Made by a program: the position numbers and the translations under genes. A stretch of 44,224 nt of DNA, taken from the NCBI GenBank assembly GCA_027065825.1, contig JAMONM010000033.1, positions 1 to 44,224 of the forward strand, written 5' to 3'. Shown one piece after another: positions 11,756 to 20,299 of the stretch; the stretch's first letter is position 1; each line of letters begins with the position of its first letter. Source of the DNA: Campylobacterales bacterium (lineage in GTDB: Bacteria > Campylobacterota > Campylobacteria > Campylobacterales > Nitratiruptoraceae). Below the pieces are notes generated by a model that had not been told where the DNA came from, did not search any database, and saw only the letters and a program-made list of their open reading frames with translations.

Positions 11756-11769
11756 TTGACTTATGTCAA
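11756..11769 (+). promoter_or_regulatory. Fnr/Dnr-type box upstream of the porin gene (TTGACTTATGTCAA)
   Basis: Perfect arms TTGAC/GTCAA with four bases between. GATAATAT at 11790-11797 gives a -10-like hexamer 27.5-29.5 bp from the box centre. The porin ATG is at 11887. The site belongs to the same class as the napA and nor boxes. Confidence 0.72.
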
Positions 11770-11886
11770 TTATGTTTTATAATAGTTTTGATAATATTTT
11801 CGTATGCAGCGAGAGCTAAAATAAAAACCGGACATTAAATAAAGAGTTAAATGTCCAAATCAAACCAATCTTCTAAAGGAGCAAGA

Positions 11887-13183: not shown

Positions 13184-13822
13184 TTACTCGTATAGCGATT
13201 TTAGACCTTCTTTGTTGAGTACTTTGAATCCCTCTTCGTCTTTTTCTATCAATTTCATCGTTTTGAATTTTTTCAAAATTCTGGAAAAGGTTTCCGGAGC
13301 TATGTGTAGAGTCTGAGCTATCTGGCTCTTTTTCATCTTTATGAAATCCTCTTCGTGTTCATATATGAATTTGGCCACCCTGGCGGTGGAGTTCATTACG
13401 ATATTGTTGGTTATAACGTCTTCTAAAAACTTTATTTTTTTGGTTAACGATTTTATGAACATGAAACTGATATCCGGATTTTTTAAAAACTCCTGTTCGA
13501 AAATTTCGTAATCGATCAAAACCGCTTCGCCGTCCGTTACAAATTCGGCGCTGGCGGGATAGGGGATCTTTTCGAGATTGACGATTTCGGCTATGAGCGA
13601 AATGGGATAGAAATGGTGTAAGATGATTTTGTTGCCTTTGGAGTCCGTTTTGTATACCTGGAGTATTCCGTCGGTTAACAAAATTAAGGATTTTGGTTCC
13701 TCTCCTTCGAAAAAGAGCATTCCGCCCTTTTTGAACGAAACCTTTTTCGAAATGGATTTAAGTCTGCGAAGCTCTTCTTCGCCGAGATTTTCGAAAAGAT
13801 AGTATTTTTTTAGATTTTCCAT
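13184..13822 (-). CDS. Crp/Fnr-family transcriptional regulator (cysteine-free)
   Basis: 212 residues with an N-terminal cyclic-nucleotide-type sensor barrel (FKKGGMLFFEGEEPKSLILL), a long dimer helix and a winged helix at about 160-190 (QIAQTLHIAPETFSRILKKF). The recognition helix keeps E..SR as in Fnr. No cysteine is present anywhere, so an Fe-S sensor is excluded; a heme-dependent NO sensor of the Dnr type is possible, since Dnr binds heme without cysteine. It reads away from nor and shares the 249-base intergenic region that holds the nor box. It is paralogous to the regulator at 2179. Confidence 0.88.
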   Translation of the reverse strand: MENLKKYYLFENLGEEELRRLKSISKKVSFKKGGMLFFEGEEPKSLILLTDGILQVYKTDSKGNKIILHHFYPISLIAEIVNLEKIPYPASAEFVTDGEAVLIDYEIFEQEFLKNPDISFMFIKSLTKKIKFLEDVITNNIVMNSTARVAKFIYEHEEDFIKMKKSQIAQTLHIAPETFSRILKKFKTMKLIEKDEEGFKVLNKEGLKSLYE

Positions 13823-13977: not shown

Positions 13978-13991
13978 TTGACTAATGTCAA
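13978..13991 (+). promoter_or_regulatory. Fnr/Dnr-type box upstream of the nor-nir operon (TTGACTAATGTCAA)
   Basis: Perfect arms TTGAC/GTCAA. TATAAAAT at 14012-14019 supplies a -10 element 27.5-29.5 bp from the box centre. The first gene starts at 14072. The site is in the divergent region shared with the Crp/Fnr gene ending at 13822, but no matching -10 is visible leftwards. Confidence 0.75.
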
Positions 13992-14071: not shown

Positions 14072-14413
14072 ATGGAATACTACATACAAGATATTCCTCA
14101 CACCGATTTTTTGTCGATATTCGTCATATCGGCACTGATTATCTTTTTTGGCATGGGATATGCCGCGTTCTTTACTCTTGTCAAGTTGAAGTTGCTAAAC
14201 AGACTCTTTATGATAGCCGCATACTCCAGCTGGGTTTTGCTGGCTTTGAGTATGTATTATCTTGGAGAGCTGCTTAGGGTGGAGCCTTATACCCAAAAGG
14301 TATTAATAGGCGCCATGGTCGGGTATCTAATTTTCCCGCACGCGGTCTATTACATACTCGACAAGGTCCATAGCAGATTCGAACACGAAAACGAATCAAA
14401 CCAAATTCAGTAA
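14072..14413 (+). CDS. Unknown three-span membrane protein, first gene of the nor operon
   Basis: 113 residues; the ATG has AAGGAGG upstream. Three hydrophobic segments lie at about 13-36, 44-64 and 75-95, followed by a charged tail (DKVHSRFEHENESNQIQ). Histidines occur at the N terminus (DIPHTDF) and in the third span (FPHAVYYI). No family was recognised. It is nine bases upstream of norC with another strong ribosome binding site, so it is almost certainly cotranscribed with norCB and nirS. An assembly or structural partner of NO reductase is inference, supported by the lack of norQ/norD nearby. Confidence 0.8.
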   Translation: MEYYIQDIPHTDFLSIFVISALIIFFGMGYAAFFTLVKLKLLNRLFMIAAYSSWVLLALSMYYLGELLRVEPYTQKVLIGAMVGYLIFPHAVYYILDKVHSRFEHENESNQIQ

Positions 14414-14422
14414 GGAGGAGAG

Positions 14423-15133
14423 ATGGAGAACAGGCCGACATCAGTCTGGACCAGCAACCGCTTTTGGCGCAGGTCCGCAACATGGGTCACGGGTGTTGCT
14501 GCAGTCCTGTTGATTCTGTTGACGTTTGACTCAATGGGACAGATGCAGATGGGTACAGCGGAGGATATTCAGAACAAAGTCACCAAAAGAATTCCTTCGC
14601 CCGTGGTGATCAACTACAAGATCGACTACGTTTTGGATCCTTATAGGGGACACGAGGTGCCTGTTATAGGCGGACAGGAAGTAGACAGCGCAACAGGCAA
14701 GGTAAGCAGCAAGTTCGAAGAGAAAGAGAACTTTTTTGGAAGGAGCGACTGGAGTGAGGAAGAGGCCCGCGCTCTGATTCACAAAGGAAAATTGACCATT
14801 CAGGCGAAAAACTGTATGGATTGTCACACTCTGCTGGGCAACGGCGCCTATTACGCTCCTGATTTGACCAAGGCTTGGCTCGATCCAGCATGGAGTTCCG
14901 AAGGTCCTTTGCAGGCTATGACCGGTGCTTCTTCCAAAGAGGAAGCTATGGCGATATTTTTGCAAAATCCGGAAAAATATCCTACTCATGAAAGGATGAT
15001 GCCGAATCTCGGAATCACTCCTGAGGAGGCAAAAGCTGTTGTCGCATATCTAAAGTTTATGTCTGCTATCGATACGAACGGTTTCCCAAGAAACTTCGGC
15101 AAGATAAAAGGAGCGGTAGATGCAAGGAAATAG
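14423..15133 (+). CDS. norC: Nitric oxide reductase cytochrome c subunit NorC, with long insertion
   Basis: 236 residues. A membrane anchor lies at about 18-38. The heme motif is C131-M-D-C134-H135 in the NorC-typical context CMDCHTLLGNGAYYAPDL, with a distal methionine in ERMMPNLGITPEEA and a C-terminal FMSAIDTNGFPRN segment. NorC of Paracoccus or Pseudomonas is about 150 residues; here roughly 60 extra residues (about 45-105) sit between anchor and heme domain, including IPSPVVINYKIDYVLDPY. NorC passes electrons to NorB. Its 3' end overlaps the norB start by 14 bases. Confidence 0.94.
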   Translation: MENRPTSVWTSNRFWRRSATWVTGVAAVLLILLTFDSMGQMQMGTAEDIQNKVTKRIPSPVVINYKIDYVLDPYRGHEVPVIGGQEVDSATGKVSSKFEEKENFFGRSDWSEEEARALIHKGKLTIQAKNCMDCHTLLGNGAYYAPDLTKAWLDPAWSSEGPLQAMTGASSKEEAMAIFLQNPEKYPTHERMMPNLGITPEEAKAVVAYLKFMSAIDTNGFPRNFGKIKGAVDARK

Positions 15134-16553
15134 ACTCTATGAAGGACAGAGACTGGCACTGAAATATTTTACGGTAGCGGTGGTGCTTTTCGGTGCTCAA
15201 TTGCTGTTTGGCCTTATCGCGGCTATTCAGTATCTTTATCCCAGCTTTTTATATAACACCCTGGATTTTTCGATTGCCAGGATGGTGCATATCAATGCGC
15301 TCGTAGTATGGTTGCTCTATGCGATGATAGGTGCCGTTTATTGGCTGTTGCCGGACGAAGCCGGCGTAGAGGTTGTCGGGGTTAAACTGGGTACGATCGG
15401 TTTTTATATTCTGACTGCAGCCGTAGCGGTTGTGGTATTGGTCTATCTCTTTGTACAGGTTGGGCCCGGTACGGAGATGACACTATGGCTGATTACCGAG
15501 GGTAGAGAGTATATCGAGGCGCCTAGATGGGCCGATATCGGTATCGTTGCAGTCGTATTGGTTTTCCTGTATAACGTTTACGCGACTGTTATGAAGGGTA
15601 ATCATACGGGAATCTTGGTTGTTTTGATGGCTGACCTGATCGCTTTGGCGGGTCTTTATCTGGCTGGAATGTTTTATACCGACAACATCAGTATCGACCA
15701 GTTCTGGTGGTGGTGGGTCGTTCACCTCTGGGTTGAGGCTACCTGGGAGGTTTACGTTGCCGCAGTCGGCGGTTACATCCTGATCAAAACTCTCAACGCA
15801 AACAGACAGGTTGTAGAGATGTGGCTCTGGATTGAGGTGGCCATGATGTTCGGATCAGGAATCTTGGGACTCGGTCACCACTATTTCTGGATTGGTACTC
15901 CAGAGTATTGGTGGGAAATCGGTGCGCTCTTTTCAGCTCTTGAGCCTGTTCCTCTTGTTGGTCTGTTCGTACACGTACTATATGACTGGGGTAAAGAGAG
16001 AGGAAAAGGCAATACGATCAAAAACGTACCCGCTTTTGCCTGGTTGACCGTTGAGACTTTCGGTAACTTCCTCGGTGCCGGCGTTTGGGGATTTATGCAT
16101 ACTCTGCCTCAAATCAACCTATATACTCACGGTACTCAGTGGCCTGCCGCGCACGGACACCTTGCATTCTTCGGCGCTTATGTGGCCATCATGATTTCGG
16201 CTATATATATCGGCGTACAGGGTAAGGCAGGTCTGAAAGAGATGAAGATGACCAGAACAGGATGGTGGGCGATTTCGCTCATAACCGTCGGAGTGTTGCT
16301 GATGACAGTCTCCTTGACGCTTTCGGCTTATACTCAGACAATGGTTGAAAGGGGTATGCACGGAGCTACCTGGGAAGGCTACTTCATAGCTCAGGCCAAC
16401 AAGTGGTTCGTTCAAGGAATGGGTTGGAGACTTGCCGCAGGTCTTTCAGTGATTGCCGGTTATGCGGCGCTGGTTTACGATCTGTTGACGGTGACCAAAA
16501 AACAGCCTGAAGAGGTATACAAAGCCGAAGAGGCCGCGGCTCAGACCGCATAA
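15120..16553 (+). CDS. norB: Nitric oxide reductase catalytic subunit NorB
   Basis: 477 residues, twelve predicted spans. Heme and FeB ligands are in place: H57 (MVHINALVVW), H202 with E206 and E210 in HLWVEATWE, H253/H254 in LGHHYFWIGTPEYW, E275 in ALEPVP, H327, and H345/H347 in AAHGHLAFFG. The glutamates identify it as a cNOR-type NO reductase rather than an oxidase. With NorC it reduces two NO to N2O in the cytoplasmic membrane. Because NorB starts inside norC the two are translationally coupled. No norQ or norD maturation gene is present in the window. Confidence 0.97.
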   Translation: MQGNRLYEGQRLALKYFTVAVVLFGAQLLFGLIAAIQYLYPSFLYNTLDFSIARMVHINALVVWLLYAMIGAVYWLLPDEAGVEVVGVKLGTIGFYILTAAVAVVVLVYLFVQVGPGTEMTLWLITEGREYIEAPRWADIGIVAVVLVFLYNVYATVMKGNHTGILVVLMADLIALAGLYLAGMFYTDNISIDQFWWWWVVHLWVEATWEVYVAAVGGYILIKTLNANRQVVEMWLWIEVAMMFGSGILGLGHHYFWIGTPEYWWEIGALFSALEPVPLVGLFVHVLYDWGKERGKGNTIKNVPAFAWLTVETFGNFLGAGVWGFMHTLPQINLYTHGTQWPAAHGHLAFFGAYVAIMISAIYIGVQGKAGLKEMKMTRTGWWAISLITVGVLLMTVSLTLSAYTQTMVERGMHGATWEGYFIAQANKWFVQGMGWRLAAGLSVIAGYAALVYDLLTVTKKQPEEVYKAEEAAAQTA

Positions 16554-16604: not shown

Positions 16605-16620
16605 TTATAAAGGAGGAGCG

Positions 16621-16773
16621 ATGTTTGAACCGTGTCACGACGTGGTCTGCAGCTTCTGGTCGATGCTGAACCAGGGGCCTATGACGTTGACCATCATTTT
16701 GCATACTCTAATAGTACTGCCGATGGTCTGGATATATTTTGACGAAAAGAAAAAGTTGCAGCAAGGAGAGTAA
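16621..16773 (+). CDS. 50-residue single-span membrane protein between norB and nirS
   Basis: An ATG with an excellent AAAGGAGGAG site begins a 50-codon gene ending in TAA at 16771. The N terminus has MFEPCHDVVCSFW with two cysteines and a histidine. A hydrophobic span covers about residues 21-40 and includes a histidine (ILHTLIV). The C terminus is charged (FDEKKKLQQGE), which favours a periplasmic N terminus and cytoplasmic tail. No family was recognised. Size and topology recall small oxidase subunits such as CcoQ or CydX, so a small NorB partner is a reasonable hypothesis. Confidence 0.75.
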   Translation: MFEPCHDVVCSFWSMLNQGPMTLTIILHTLIVLPMVWIYFDEKKKLQQGE

Positions 16774-16791: not shown

Positions 16792-16824
16792 TTGAGATAG
16801 AGGGAAGGGGAACCTATATCTCAA
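16792..16824 (+). promoter_or_regulatory. Hairpin immediately before the nirS ribosome binding site
   Basis: TTGAGATA (16792-16799) pairs with TATCTCAA (16817-16824), and AGG (16801-16803) with CCT (16813-16815), each side having one mismatched base. The right arm ends one base before the run leading to AAGGAG (16826-16831) of nirS. It may protect the 5' end of a processed nirS message or affect its translation. Confidence 0.5.
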
Positions 16825-16837
16825 AAAGGAGTGGATG

Positions 16838-18502
16838 ATGAAGCTTAGAATAGGGTTGAGTGCAGTATTGGCCCTCGGGTTGATGGGTTCTTTGGCTACC
16901 ACGGCCAGCGCAGGCGTCTCTTTGAATAAAGAGGAGATGAAGAAGGCTACGCAGATCTATTTCGACAGATGTGCGGGTTGTCACGGAATGCTCAGAAAAG
17001 GTGCCCTGGGTCCGGATCTGTTGCCTAAAAAGACCAAAGAGATCGGTACGGACGCTCTTTATCAGATAATTTATAACGGTACGCCTGGCGGTATGCCAGA
17101 CTGGGGAGCATCCGGCGAGTTGAGCAAAGAAGAGACGATGCTGATGGCCAAATTTATCCAGCTGCCGCCGGTCTCTCCTCCTGAAAAATCGATGGCGGAT
17201 ATGAAAAAGAGCTGGAAACTGTTGGTTCCGCCCGAAAAGAGACCTTCTAAGCCTGAAACCGATAGAAATTGGGAGAACTATTTCGGTATCGTTCTTAGAG
17301 ACGTCGGTAAAGTTGCCATTGTCGACGGAGACACGAAAGAGCTCGTAAGCATCGTAAACTCAGGTTTTGCTACGCACATTCTCAGAACCAGTAAATCTGG
17401 ACGATATATGTATGCCATCGGTAGGGACGGCAAGGCGAGCGTTATAGATCTTTGGATGAAAAAACCGGAAAACGTGGCTGAAATTAGGGTATGTAACGAC
17501 GCCAGAAGTATAGACACCTCAAAAGCCAAAGGTTACGAAGACGAGTATGCGGTTGTTGGATGTTACTGGCCGCCTTCAATCGTTACGCTAAAAGGCGACA
17601 CTCTCGAGCCTATTCAGATCGTATCTACGGCTAGCTATACTTATGATACCGGCGAGTTTACCAGAGAGGCCAGAGTCGCTTCTATCGTGGCCAATCACCA
17701 CAAACCCGAATGGGTCATCAACGTTAAAGAGACCGGTCAGGTATGGTTGTACGACTACTCAGATCCTAGAAACCCGAACATTCATATGTTGATGTCCGAA
17801 AGATATCTGCACGATGGCGGTTGGGATCTGACCAAGAGATATTTCCTGGTCGCTGCTAACGCCAGAAACAAAGTGGTCGCTGTCGATACACAAGACGGTG
17901 AAGTGGCGGCTATTATACCTAGCGGCGGTGTTAAACCTCACCCAGGAAGAGGAGCCAACATCAACCATCCAAAATATGGTCCGCTTTGGGCGACAGGACA
18001 TATTGGTTCCAATGATATCAGCTTTATAGGAACCGATCCCACTTACCATCCTCAGTATGCTTGGAGAGTGGTCAAGAAAATCAGTCTGCCCGGCGTAGGC
18101 GGGGGTAACCTCTTTATTAAAACGCATCCGGCTTCCAAATATATAATTTGCGACAGACCGGTTAACCCCGATAGAAAACTGCAGACTCAGCTCTATGTAA
18201 TCGACAAAAACACTCTCGAGGTCGTAAAAACGATCAAGGTTCCCAGCAAATACGTAAAAGAGAGAACCGTTACTGTTAACGGTAAAAAGATCAAAGTCAA
18301 GCCAAGAGGTCCGGTCCATATCGAGTTCAACAAAGATGGGGATGAGTTCTGGGTAAGTATCTGGGGTCATAAACTCGTTCCATCCGCCATTTTGGTTTAT
18401 GATTCCAATACCCTCAAGCTCAAAAAAGCTATCGAGGGAGACTGGGTTAGAACTCCGACCGGTAAGTTCAACGTATTCAATACAAAATACGACATCTACT
18501 AA
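16838..18502 (+). CDS. nirS: Cytochrome cd1 nitrite reductase NirS
   Basis: 554 residues from the second of two tandem ATGs; it is six bases from AAGGAG, whereas the one at 16835 is only three. A Sec signal peptide ends near TTASAG. The c-heme motif C45-A-G-C48-H49 lies in an N-terminal cytochrome domain, followed by an eight-bladed d1 propeller. Its motifs match NirS: HHKPEWVINVKETG and KPHPGRGANINHP, which carry the two active-site histidines, FIKTHPASKY, and a terminal TPTGKFNVFNT. It reduces nitrite to NO in the periplasm. It is cotranscribed or closely linked with nor, which would couple NO production to removal. Confidence 0.97.
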   Translation: MKLRIGLSAVLALGLMGSLATTASAGVSLNKEEMKKATQIYFDRCAGCHGMLRKGALGPDLLPKKTKEIGTDALYQIIYNGTPGGMPDWGASGELSKEETMLMAKFIQLPPVSPPEKSMADMKKSWKLLVPPEKRPSKPETDRNWENYFGIVLRDVGKVAIVDGDTKELVSIVNSGFATHILRTSKSGRYMYAIGRDGKASVIDLWMKKPENVAEIRVCNDARSIDTSKAKGYEDEYAVVGCYWPPSIVTLKGDTLEPIQIVSTASYTYDTGEFTREARVASIVANHHKPEWVINVKETGQVWLYDYSDPRNPNIHMLMSERYLHDGGWDLTKRYFLVAANARNKVVAVDTQDGEVAAIIPSGGVKPHPGRGANINHPKYGPLWATGHIGSNDISFIGTDPTYHPQYAWRVVKKISLPGVGGGNLFIKTHPASKYIICDRPVNPDRKLQTQLYVIDKNTLEVVKTIKVPSKYVKERTVTVNGKKIKVKPRGPVHIEFNKDGDEFWVSIWGHKLVPSAILVYDSNTLKLKKAIEGDWVRTPTGKFNVFNTKYDIY

Positions 18503-18601: not shown

Positions 18602-20299
18602 ATGAAAAAAGCTCTTTTGATCGCTTCGATTGCTTTGTTGAATCTCTTTGCGCAATCCAGATTTGACAGCTTTTACGTGCATCAGTTAGAGAGCAAAGCG
18701 GAACTAAACGGAAAGTCGCTCTATGAGAGATACTGCGCCGATTGTCACCACAAGGACAGAATCGGAACCAGTGCGCCGCCTCTTTTGCCAGTCTTTTTAA
18801 AGCGAATGAGCGACGAGAGACTCAAAACCATTATAAAAAATTCGCTTCCTCAAACTCTCATGCCCAAATTCGATTTTTTGAGCGATTCTCAGATTGAAGC
18901 GATCGTGACCTATTTACGTCAGCCTCTAAACAAAAATGTAAAATGGGATCTGGAGAATATAAAAGGATCTGTAAAAACCTTTGAAACGGCGAGAAAAAAA
19001 CTGGGAATCCACGATATTCGAAACGTTACTCTCGTCGTTGAACGCGGGGCCGACAAAGTATGGATAATGGAGAACGAAAAGGTTTTGGACAGGTTCGATT
19101 TTTCAAACGTGCACGGCGGACTGAAATTCACTCTTGACGGTAAAAGTTTTTTCGTTCCTACAAGAGACGGTTGGATAGGCAGATACTCGCTCGAAGAGGG
19201 ACGATTGACAAAAAAGGTCAGAGCCTGCGTCAATTTGAGAAACGTCAGTGTAGAGAGAAACGGAAATTATCTTTTTGCCACCTGTTTGTTGCCTCAATCC
19301 GTAGTTATTTTTGAAACCAAAACTTTAAAACCGCTTAAAATGGTTCCGGTCAAGGGAAAAATAAGCGCACTGTATGAGCTATACAGCAAAGACGAAGCTA
19401 TCTTTACCTTTAGAGATCGTCCGAAACTTGTAAAGGTGGATACTAAAACGTTTCAATTTAAATATTACGATTTGAAACGGCCTATCGAAGATTTTTTTAT
19501 CGATCCTTTCGAGGAGTATATTATAGGTACCACCAGACGAGGCAGTAGGCTTTCTGTTTATAATTTGAAGGATCTAAAAGAGATATTTGAGTCTAAAATT
19601 GAAGGAATGCCCCATCTTTTTAGCGCTACCTACTGGTACCGCGACGGCAATTTCTATTTTGCGACGCCGCATTTGAGAAAGCCGTACGTAACCGTCTGGC
19701 GAATGTACGATTGGGCTCTCATAAAAAAAATCGACACCGACGGAGACGGATTTTTTGTAAAGACTCATCCGGCGTCCGCCTATCTATGGGCCGACAACTC
19801 TACCGATGAGCTGGTGTTGATCGATAAACGCGACTATAAAAAAAGAGTTCTTGTCCCCAAAAAGGGTAAAAGGTATATCCACACCGAATTTAGCGGCGAC
19901 GGCAGACTGGCCTATTTGAGTATATACGAGCCGGACGGCGCCCTTATGGTCTATGAGACAGACACTTTTAGAAAAATAAAAAAGTATCCGGCCAACGTTC
20001 CTGTAGGTAAATACAATTTTATCAACAAAAATAGAGTCTTTTATCCTAGACTTTTCGGAATGAGTATTTTCAAGGAGAAGTGTTGGGGTTGCCACCATCA
20101 GACTGCCGAGGCTTTCGGACCTCCCTTTAGCAAGATCGCAAAGCAAAGAAACGATGCGGAGATAATGGCGCAGATTGTCGATCCAGAACATACCTATAAA
20201 GATCTCGGTTACAAAAGAAATTCTATGCCCGCTTTCGATCTGAACGCAAAAGAGCTAAAGAGCATTGTCGAATATATAAAAAGCTTTAAGGGAGAGTAG
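18602..20299 (+). CDS. nirN: NirN-like heme d1 protein with cytochrome c domains at both ends
   Basis: 565 residues from the ATG at 18602, preceded by AGGAGGGAGG; the frame continues up to 18554 without a better start. A signal peptide is followed by a cytochrome c domain (C45-A-D-C48-H49, then LMPKFDFLSD), a cytochrome d1-type propeller with FVKTHPASAYLW and YIHTEFSGDGRLAYLS, and a second c-heme motif C494-W-G-C497-H498 in a C-terminal cytochrome domain. NirN of Pseudomonas has the N-terminal cytochrome and propeller and performs the last dehydrogenation of heme d1. The extra C-terminal cytochrome is not part of that layout. It could be a NirN variant or a second d1-binding enzyme. Position next to nirJ/F/E favours d1 maturation. 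Confidence 0.82.
   Translation: MKKALLIASIALLNLFAQSRFDSFYVHQLESKAELNGKSLYERYCADCHHKDRIGTSAPPLLPVFLKRMSDERLKTIIKNSLPQTLMPKFDFLSDSQIEAIVTYLRQPLNKNVKWDLENIKGSVKTFETARKKLGIHDIRNVTLVVERGADKVWIMENEKVLDRFDFSNVHGGLKFTLDGKSFFVPTRDGWIGRYSLEEGRLTKKVRACVNLRNVSVERNGNYLFATCLLPQSVVIFETKTLKPLKMVPVKGKISALYELYSKDEAIFTFRDRPKLVKVDTKTFQFKYYDLKRPIEDFFIDPFEEYIIGTTRRGSRLSVYNLKDLKEIFESKIEGMPHLFSATYWYRDGNFYFATPHLRKPYVTVWRMYDWALIKKIDTDGDGFFVKTHPASAYLWADNSTDELVLIDKRDYKKRVLVPKKGKRYIHTEFSGDGRLAYLSIYEPDGALMVYETDTFRKIKKYPANVPVGKYNFINKNRVFYPRLFGMSIFKEKCWGCHHQTAEAFGPPFSKIAKQRNDAEIMAQIVDPEHTYKDLGYKRNSMPAFDLNAKELKSIVEYIKSFKGE

Follow-up and report, generated by a model that had tools for sequence, protein, structure and literature searches.

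A conserved single-span membrane protein encoded behind norB, a probable small subunit or assembly partner of NorH-type nitric oxide reductase in Campylobacterota

Identification of the small gene behind norB

The open reading frame at 16621-16773 of the window (the whole stretch of DNA that was analysed, 44,224 nucleotides) is a real gene and not a chance frame. Its product, protein X, matches no described family and was unnamed until now. X probably belongs to the NorHCB-type cytochrome c NO reductase (cNOR), either as its fourth subunit, with a single helix, or as a partner in its assembly; we infer both the binding and the function. The best explanation, which we rate as fairly likely, is that X is a small accessory subunit of the NorH-type cNOR, made from a norH-norC-norB-X cassette. 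The features of the locus were as follows.

13184-13822, minus strand: Crp/Fnr-type regulator
13978-13991, plus strand: Crp/Fnr (Nss/Dnr-type) box TTGACTAATGTCAA; the norH-like gene starts 94 bp further on
14072-14413, plus strand: likely norH homologue, three spans, 113 aa, directly upstream of norC (hhalign, HMM, cassette)
14423-15133, plus strand: norC, cytochrome c subunit of cNOR
15120-16553, plus strand: norB, catalytic subunit of cNOR, NorH-type lineage (57% identity to Thermus NorB, about 40% to canonical NorB)
16609-16618, plus strand: Shine-Dalgarno site of X, AAAGGAGGAG (read from the sequence)
16621-16773, plus strand: protein X, 50-aa single-span membrane protein (conserved frame, purifying selection, always right behind norB)
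16835-18502, plus strand: nirS, cytochrome cd1 nitrite reductase, a neighbour outside the conserved cassette

The gene starts with ATG and encodes 50 aa (MFEPCHDVVCSFWSMLNQGPMTLTIILHTLIVLPMVWIYFDEKKKLQQGE). A gap of 67 nt separates it from the norB stop codon, and one of 61 nt from nirS downstream. The preliminary description had reported a gene with a ribosome-binding site between norB and nirS, and both were found at these positions; the site of X is a perfect match, and an SD-like site was present upstream of X in 73/73 copies examined.

Relatives of X with 54-96% identity were detected in 42 GTDB contigs by a tblastn/phmmer contig scan. Within its own family, X was matched in 21 of the 22 genomes searched, and the match in G015 was weak (E=0.05). 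A tBLASTn check near norB in Campylobacterota had been proposed, and strong matches (E<=5e-13) were obtained in 72 of 397 genomes of this phylum, a count that leaves out two weak matches with in-frame stops. The reading frame was open throughout the counted copies, with lengths of 47-59 aa. Compared with its nearest relatives, X had a pN of 0.013-0.08 with saturated synonymous change, and the median dN/dS was 0.14 (321 closer pairs). The nucleotide entropy at codon positions 1, 2, and 3 was 0.59, 0.28, and 1.31, respectively. The codon-position pattern and dN/dS indicated that strong purifying selection acts on the X protein.

These values also bear on the idea that the frame is a leader peptide or the by-product of a conserved RNA element, with a product that has no membrane function. 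In its favour, a stable hairpin at 16792-16824, between X and nirS, ends just 5' of the nirS ribosome-binding site (the region is a 67-nt stretch with -21.4 kcal/mol and a z of -2.3). However, third codon positions are free while the residues are fixed, with the low dN/dS given above; invariant residues are found across the whole span and over several families, and X is kept despite different downstream genes. The idea is thus scarcely credible. The hairpin itself might set the ratio of nor to nir expression.

Linkage of X to norB

A norB of the same type (63-100% identity) was present in 73 of the 397 Campylobacterota genomes, and X was located 3-111 bp downstream of it on the same strand in 72 of the 73. 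The single genome without X behind norB was G233, whose contig ends inside norB. X never occurred without this norB, since every X-bearing genome among the 397 has it, and the presence of X matched that of the norB in 72/72 testable Campylobacterota genomes. In the same 397-genome draw, X was not found in Campylobacterota with only canonical norB (about 41% identity) or qNOR. In addition, a profile search did not find X at canonical norB loci or at the norCBH loci of Thermus and L209. The recurrent unit was a cassette of four genes, namely norH-like, norC, norB, and X.

In the NorB tree, all 78 NorB with X behind, together with the truncated G233 sequence, formed one clade with a support of 0.92. 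The sister group consisted of Thermus NorB and the Thermus-like L209 NorB, both without X. L209 (G430:C195) belongs to a gammaproteobacterial-order MAG that has an X-type cNOR besides this Thermus-type norC-norB-norH cluster, which is devoid of X.

The cassette norHCB-X was also found in a few Gammaproteobacteria (orders reached via G408), and X was behind norB wherever the contig continues. Seven gammaproteobacterial genomes showed this arrangement (G408, G430, G425, G421, G481, G743, and G602), and the cassette was absent from most of the sampled Gammaproteobacteria and Pseudomonadota. The cassette, X included, has passed to or from Gammaproteobacteria. In another genome (G410, L119/L121), an X-type norHCB-X adjoins a canonical norCB in divergent orientation.

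Many genomes, like the window, have X flanked by norB and nirS, a position that would suit a protein that serves the downstream NirS or couples NirS to NOR. However, the gene behind X varies: it was nirS, a divergent NirS-like gene with 25-30% identity, or neither. X was kept behind norB where nirS was not downstream (G346, G223, and G024), and the nirS clusters of Thermus and L209 have no X. A role as a partner of NirS was rejected as very unlikely; X tracks norB, not nirS.

The denitrification cluster around X

The consensus for the Nss/Dnr-type box was taken from a study of Nitrosophilus labii, in which the nor and nir genes share one transcription unit (PMC11539149). A second perfect Crp/Fnr-type box, TTGAC-N4-GTCAA, was located at 11756-11769, before a porin-like ORF at 11851. 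Beyond nirS, the cluster continued with a d1-type haem protein that also has cytochrome c domains, followed by nirJ, a second d1-type protein, and nosZ. The first of these proteins (18602-20299, plus strand) has its haem d1-type part between two cytochrome c domains, like a NirN-like fusion, and many of its relatives matched as two separate pieces or partially.

Relationship to NorH

The preliminary description knew of no small subunit of this kind for bacterial cNOR. This had to be corrected, as a passage of PMC5748679 that cites Bricio et al. 2014 gives NorH as the third subunit of Thermus cNOR. Furthermore, the Thermus enzyme was termed heterotrimeric in PMC5015936. A norH has been reported from Aquificota as well. 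The nearest characterised relative of the window NorB was this Thermus enzyme (57% identity), the operon of which has the order norC-norB-norH-nirS. Like X, Thermus NorH is a small protein of the membrane whose gene accompanies norC and norB, and the Thermus norH stands between norB and nirS, exactly where X stands. X is likewise encoded within the norCB operon. However, Thermus NorH has 98 aa and three spans, whereas X has 50 aa and one span. The alignment score of X against Thermus NorH was no better than those of shuffled sequences, and the profile comparison gave an E of 0.73 over 2 columns. X was therefore rejected as a NorH homologue.

The product of the gene at 14072-14413 is a likely, though not proven, NorH homologue. 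Its family (43 sequences) was aligned with Thermus NorH by hhalign over 81 columns with an E of 1.7e-4 and a probability of 49.5%, the latter being only this high because the Thermus side was one sequence. Moreover, when six-frame translations were searched with the HMM of this family, it picked the NorH ORFs of both Thermus and L209, and the gene was in the norHCB-X cassette throughout. The N. labii paper (PMC11539149) probably refers to this gene as norE.

Sequence, topology, and predicted structure of X

The segments of X considered below were as follows.

16633-16650, plus strand: codons C5 to C10; in this probable periplasmic segment, the two Cys occur all-or-none (73 sequences)
16681-16743, plus strand: transmembrane segment, about residues 21-41 (hydropathy, positive-inside rule, AlphaFold2 helix)
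16702-16704, plus strand: codon of the invariant His28, within the span (72-sequence alignment)

X had one hydrophobic segment, with the best 19-residue windows covering 20-41 in the hydropathy analysis. The mean number of K/R was 0.05 N-terminal to the span and 3.9 C-terminal to it. According to the positive-inside rule, the few K/R before the span and the many after it would place the N-terminus outside and the Lys/Arg-rich C-terminus inside. Ten residues were invariant in the 72-sequence alignment: D7, P20, L23, L27, H28, P34, M35, Y39, E42, and K43.

A single-span protein with C5, H6, and C10 at the N-terminus and H28 within the span had been described, and the sequence confirmed it. The emphasis laid on these residues held for H28, which is conserved, but not for the other three, which are not general. 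Both Cys were present in 19/73 sequences, neither in 54/73, and a single one in 0/73, and H6 occurred in only 4/73. The carriers of the pair were f1, f11, part of f4, and the gammaproteobacterial G408. Since the Cys are present or absent as a pair, an optional disulfide fits better than a cofactor site. The N-terminal Cys/Cys/His was discarded as a conserved metal site, and a conserved cofactor site at this end of X seems unlikely.

In AlphaFold2 models of a NorB-X read-through (31, then 75 sequences), the X block had a moderate pLDDT of 58-77. Both models contained an X helix at 20-47 and a short helix at 12-16, which are predicted to be a long membrane helix and an interfacial helix, respectively. 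The NorB fold was recovered in the read-through model (Foldseek matches 4xyd/3o0r), and X was helical and not confidently docked on NorB. A haem shared between His28 of X and His90 of NorH was also considered and rejected, because G320 has a Tyr in place of the NorH histidine although its X retains His28, and because the two residues are predicted to lie at different depths.

Maturation without NorQD

In Paracoccus, cNOR requires NorQ and NorD for Fe_B insertion, and the docking site of NorD on NorB is the acidic pair D220/E222 (PMC9976466). The NorQ domain PF08406 was present in 15/15 Campylobacterota genomes with canonical norCB, adjoining norCB where coordinates were comparable. It was absent from 29/29 genomes with only X-type cNOR and from the genome of the window itself (0/30 in all), and also from two Thermus plasmids carrying the nor cluster. 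In the gammaproteobacterial X genomes, PF08406 genes were present on other contigs; these genes may encode CbbQ and not NorQ.

The docking pair was located by motif spacing and by the offset of 13 residues that usually separates the numbering of Paracoccus NorB from that of Pseudomonas NorB; we take D220/E222 to be an Asp-Arg-Glu motif, which precedes the Fe_B histidines by 25 residues. With this mapping, which is somewhat uncertain because the histidine number in PMC9976466 does not fit the 13-residue offset, the motif was DRE in 6/6 canonical NorB and PRR/PRK in two Thermus-type NorB, and both acids were found in 0/79 NorB with X behind (one truncated). The window NorB has the following residues at this place.

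15801-15809, plus strand: Asn-Arg-Gln of NorB (residues 228-230) at the canonical Asp-Arg-Glu place (motif comparison)

The lack of both NorQ and the NorD-docking acids suggested that the X-type cNOR lineage probably matures without NorQD. In a rival reading, X only helps to assemble or mature NorB, for instance when Fe_B or haem is inserted; it is not retained in the finished enzyme and acts in a NorQD-independent route. The PF08406 distribution, the missing docking acids, and the NorQD requirement of the Paracoccus enzyme are all in line with this role. However, the Thermus-type NorB and the two nor plasmids also lack the docking pair and PF08406, yet have no X. As the Thermus cluster lacks all three, NorQD independence would predate X, and it is not in itself a reason to assign maturation to X. 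A pure maturation factor is thus possible but doubtful. We regard as unlikely, and a little less probable still, a combined role, in which a separate cNOR lineage, NorHCB-X, is defined by X as its fourth subunit, the Fe_B site is built without the NorQD AAA+ machine, and X is a built-in intramembrane chaperone that keeps NorB ready for iron insertion.

Proposed role and significance

The accessory subunit reading is supported by the norB linkage, the transfer of the cassette with X, the single NorB clade, the persistence of X where nirS is not downstream, the dN/dS, the positive-inside topology, and the shared nor-nir transcription unit of N. labii. It is weakened by the AlphaFold2 read-through, which gave no usable docking of X, and by the Thermus NorCBH, which works without X, so that a NorH-type cNOR does not in general depend on X. 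The nearest alternative is a purely transient assembly factor, and operon linkage alone cannot separate it from a subunit. As an accessory subunit, X would be inserted so that the short N-terminal segment faces the periplasm. Its helix would pack on NorB and/or NorH via the invariant P20-L23-L27-H28-P34-M35-Y39, and the cytoplasmic E42-K43 patch would anchor it. X may then stabilise NorB after assembly, or the metal site of NorB, as is thought for CcoQ, CydX, and NorH in their own enzymes.

The product of cNOR is N2O, a greenhouse gas, and much of the sulfur-driven denitrification at vents, in sediments, and in wastewater is due to Campylobacterota. Should X be a subunit, the cNOR of this phylum would be a four-component complex, in contrast to the two subunits of the textbook enzyme or the three of the Thermus one, and heterologous expression or purification that omits the unannotated X gene may fail. 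In addition, the lack of NorQ and of the NorD-docking acids raises a testable question, namely how Fe_B enters a cNOR without NorQD.

Comparison with known small subunits and accessory proteins

The hmmscan of X against Pfam and NCBIfam gave no NCBIfam match and only weak, unrelated Pfam matches below the cut-off. A Pfam scan of all 72 X members gave no credible family, and a profile search of the PDB with X gave no credible chain.

Accessory genes dedicated to cNOR have been described before. NorE/NorF and NorQD of the canonical norCBQDEF operons are such genes, as X is, and NorQ of these operons is absent from the genomes with only X-type cNOR. The CcoQ/FixQ protein of cbb3 oxidase (PF05545) has, like X, about 50 aa, one span, and a charged cytoplasmic tail, and its gene is beside that of the catalytic subunit of a haem-copper superfamily enzyme. 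However, CcoQ/FixQ belongs to a different enzyme with a ccoNOQP operon, whereas X is in a norHCB operon. PF05545 gave a best E of 0.15 in 1/72 X members, below the Pfam cut-off, and X was not regarded as a CcoQ/FixQ. The CydX/CydZ-type micro-subunits of cytochrome bd are also single-span proteins that are encoded beside the catalytic genes and missed by annotation. They belong to an enzyme superfamily other than that of cNOR, the partner of X, and CydX was not among the Pfam matches of X. The preliminary description had given X the size and topology of CcoQ- or CydX-type small subunits, and this likeness is borne out: X is a conserved single-span micro-protein tied to norB.
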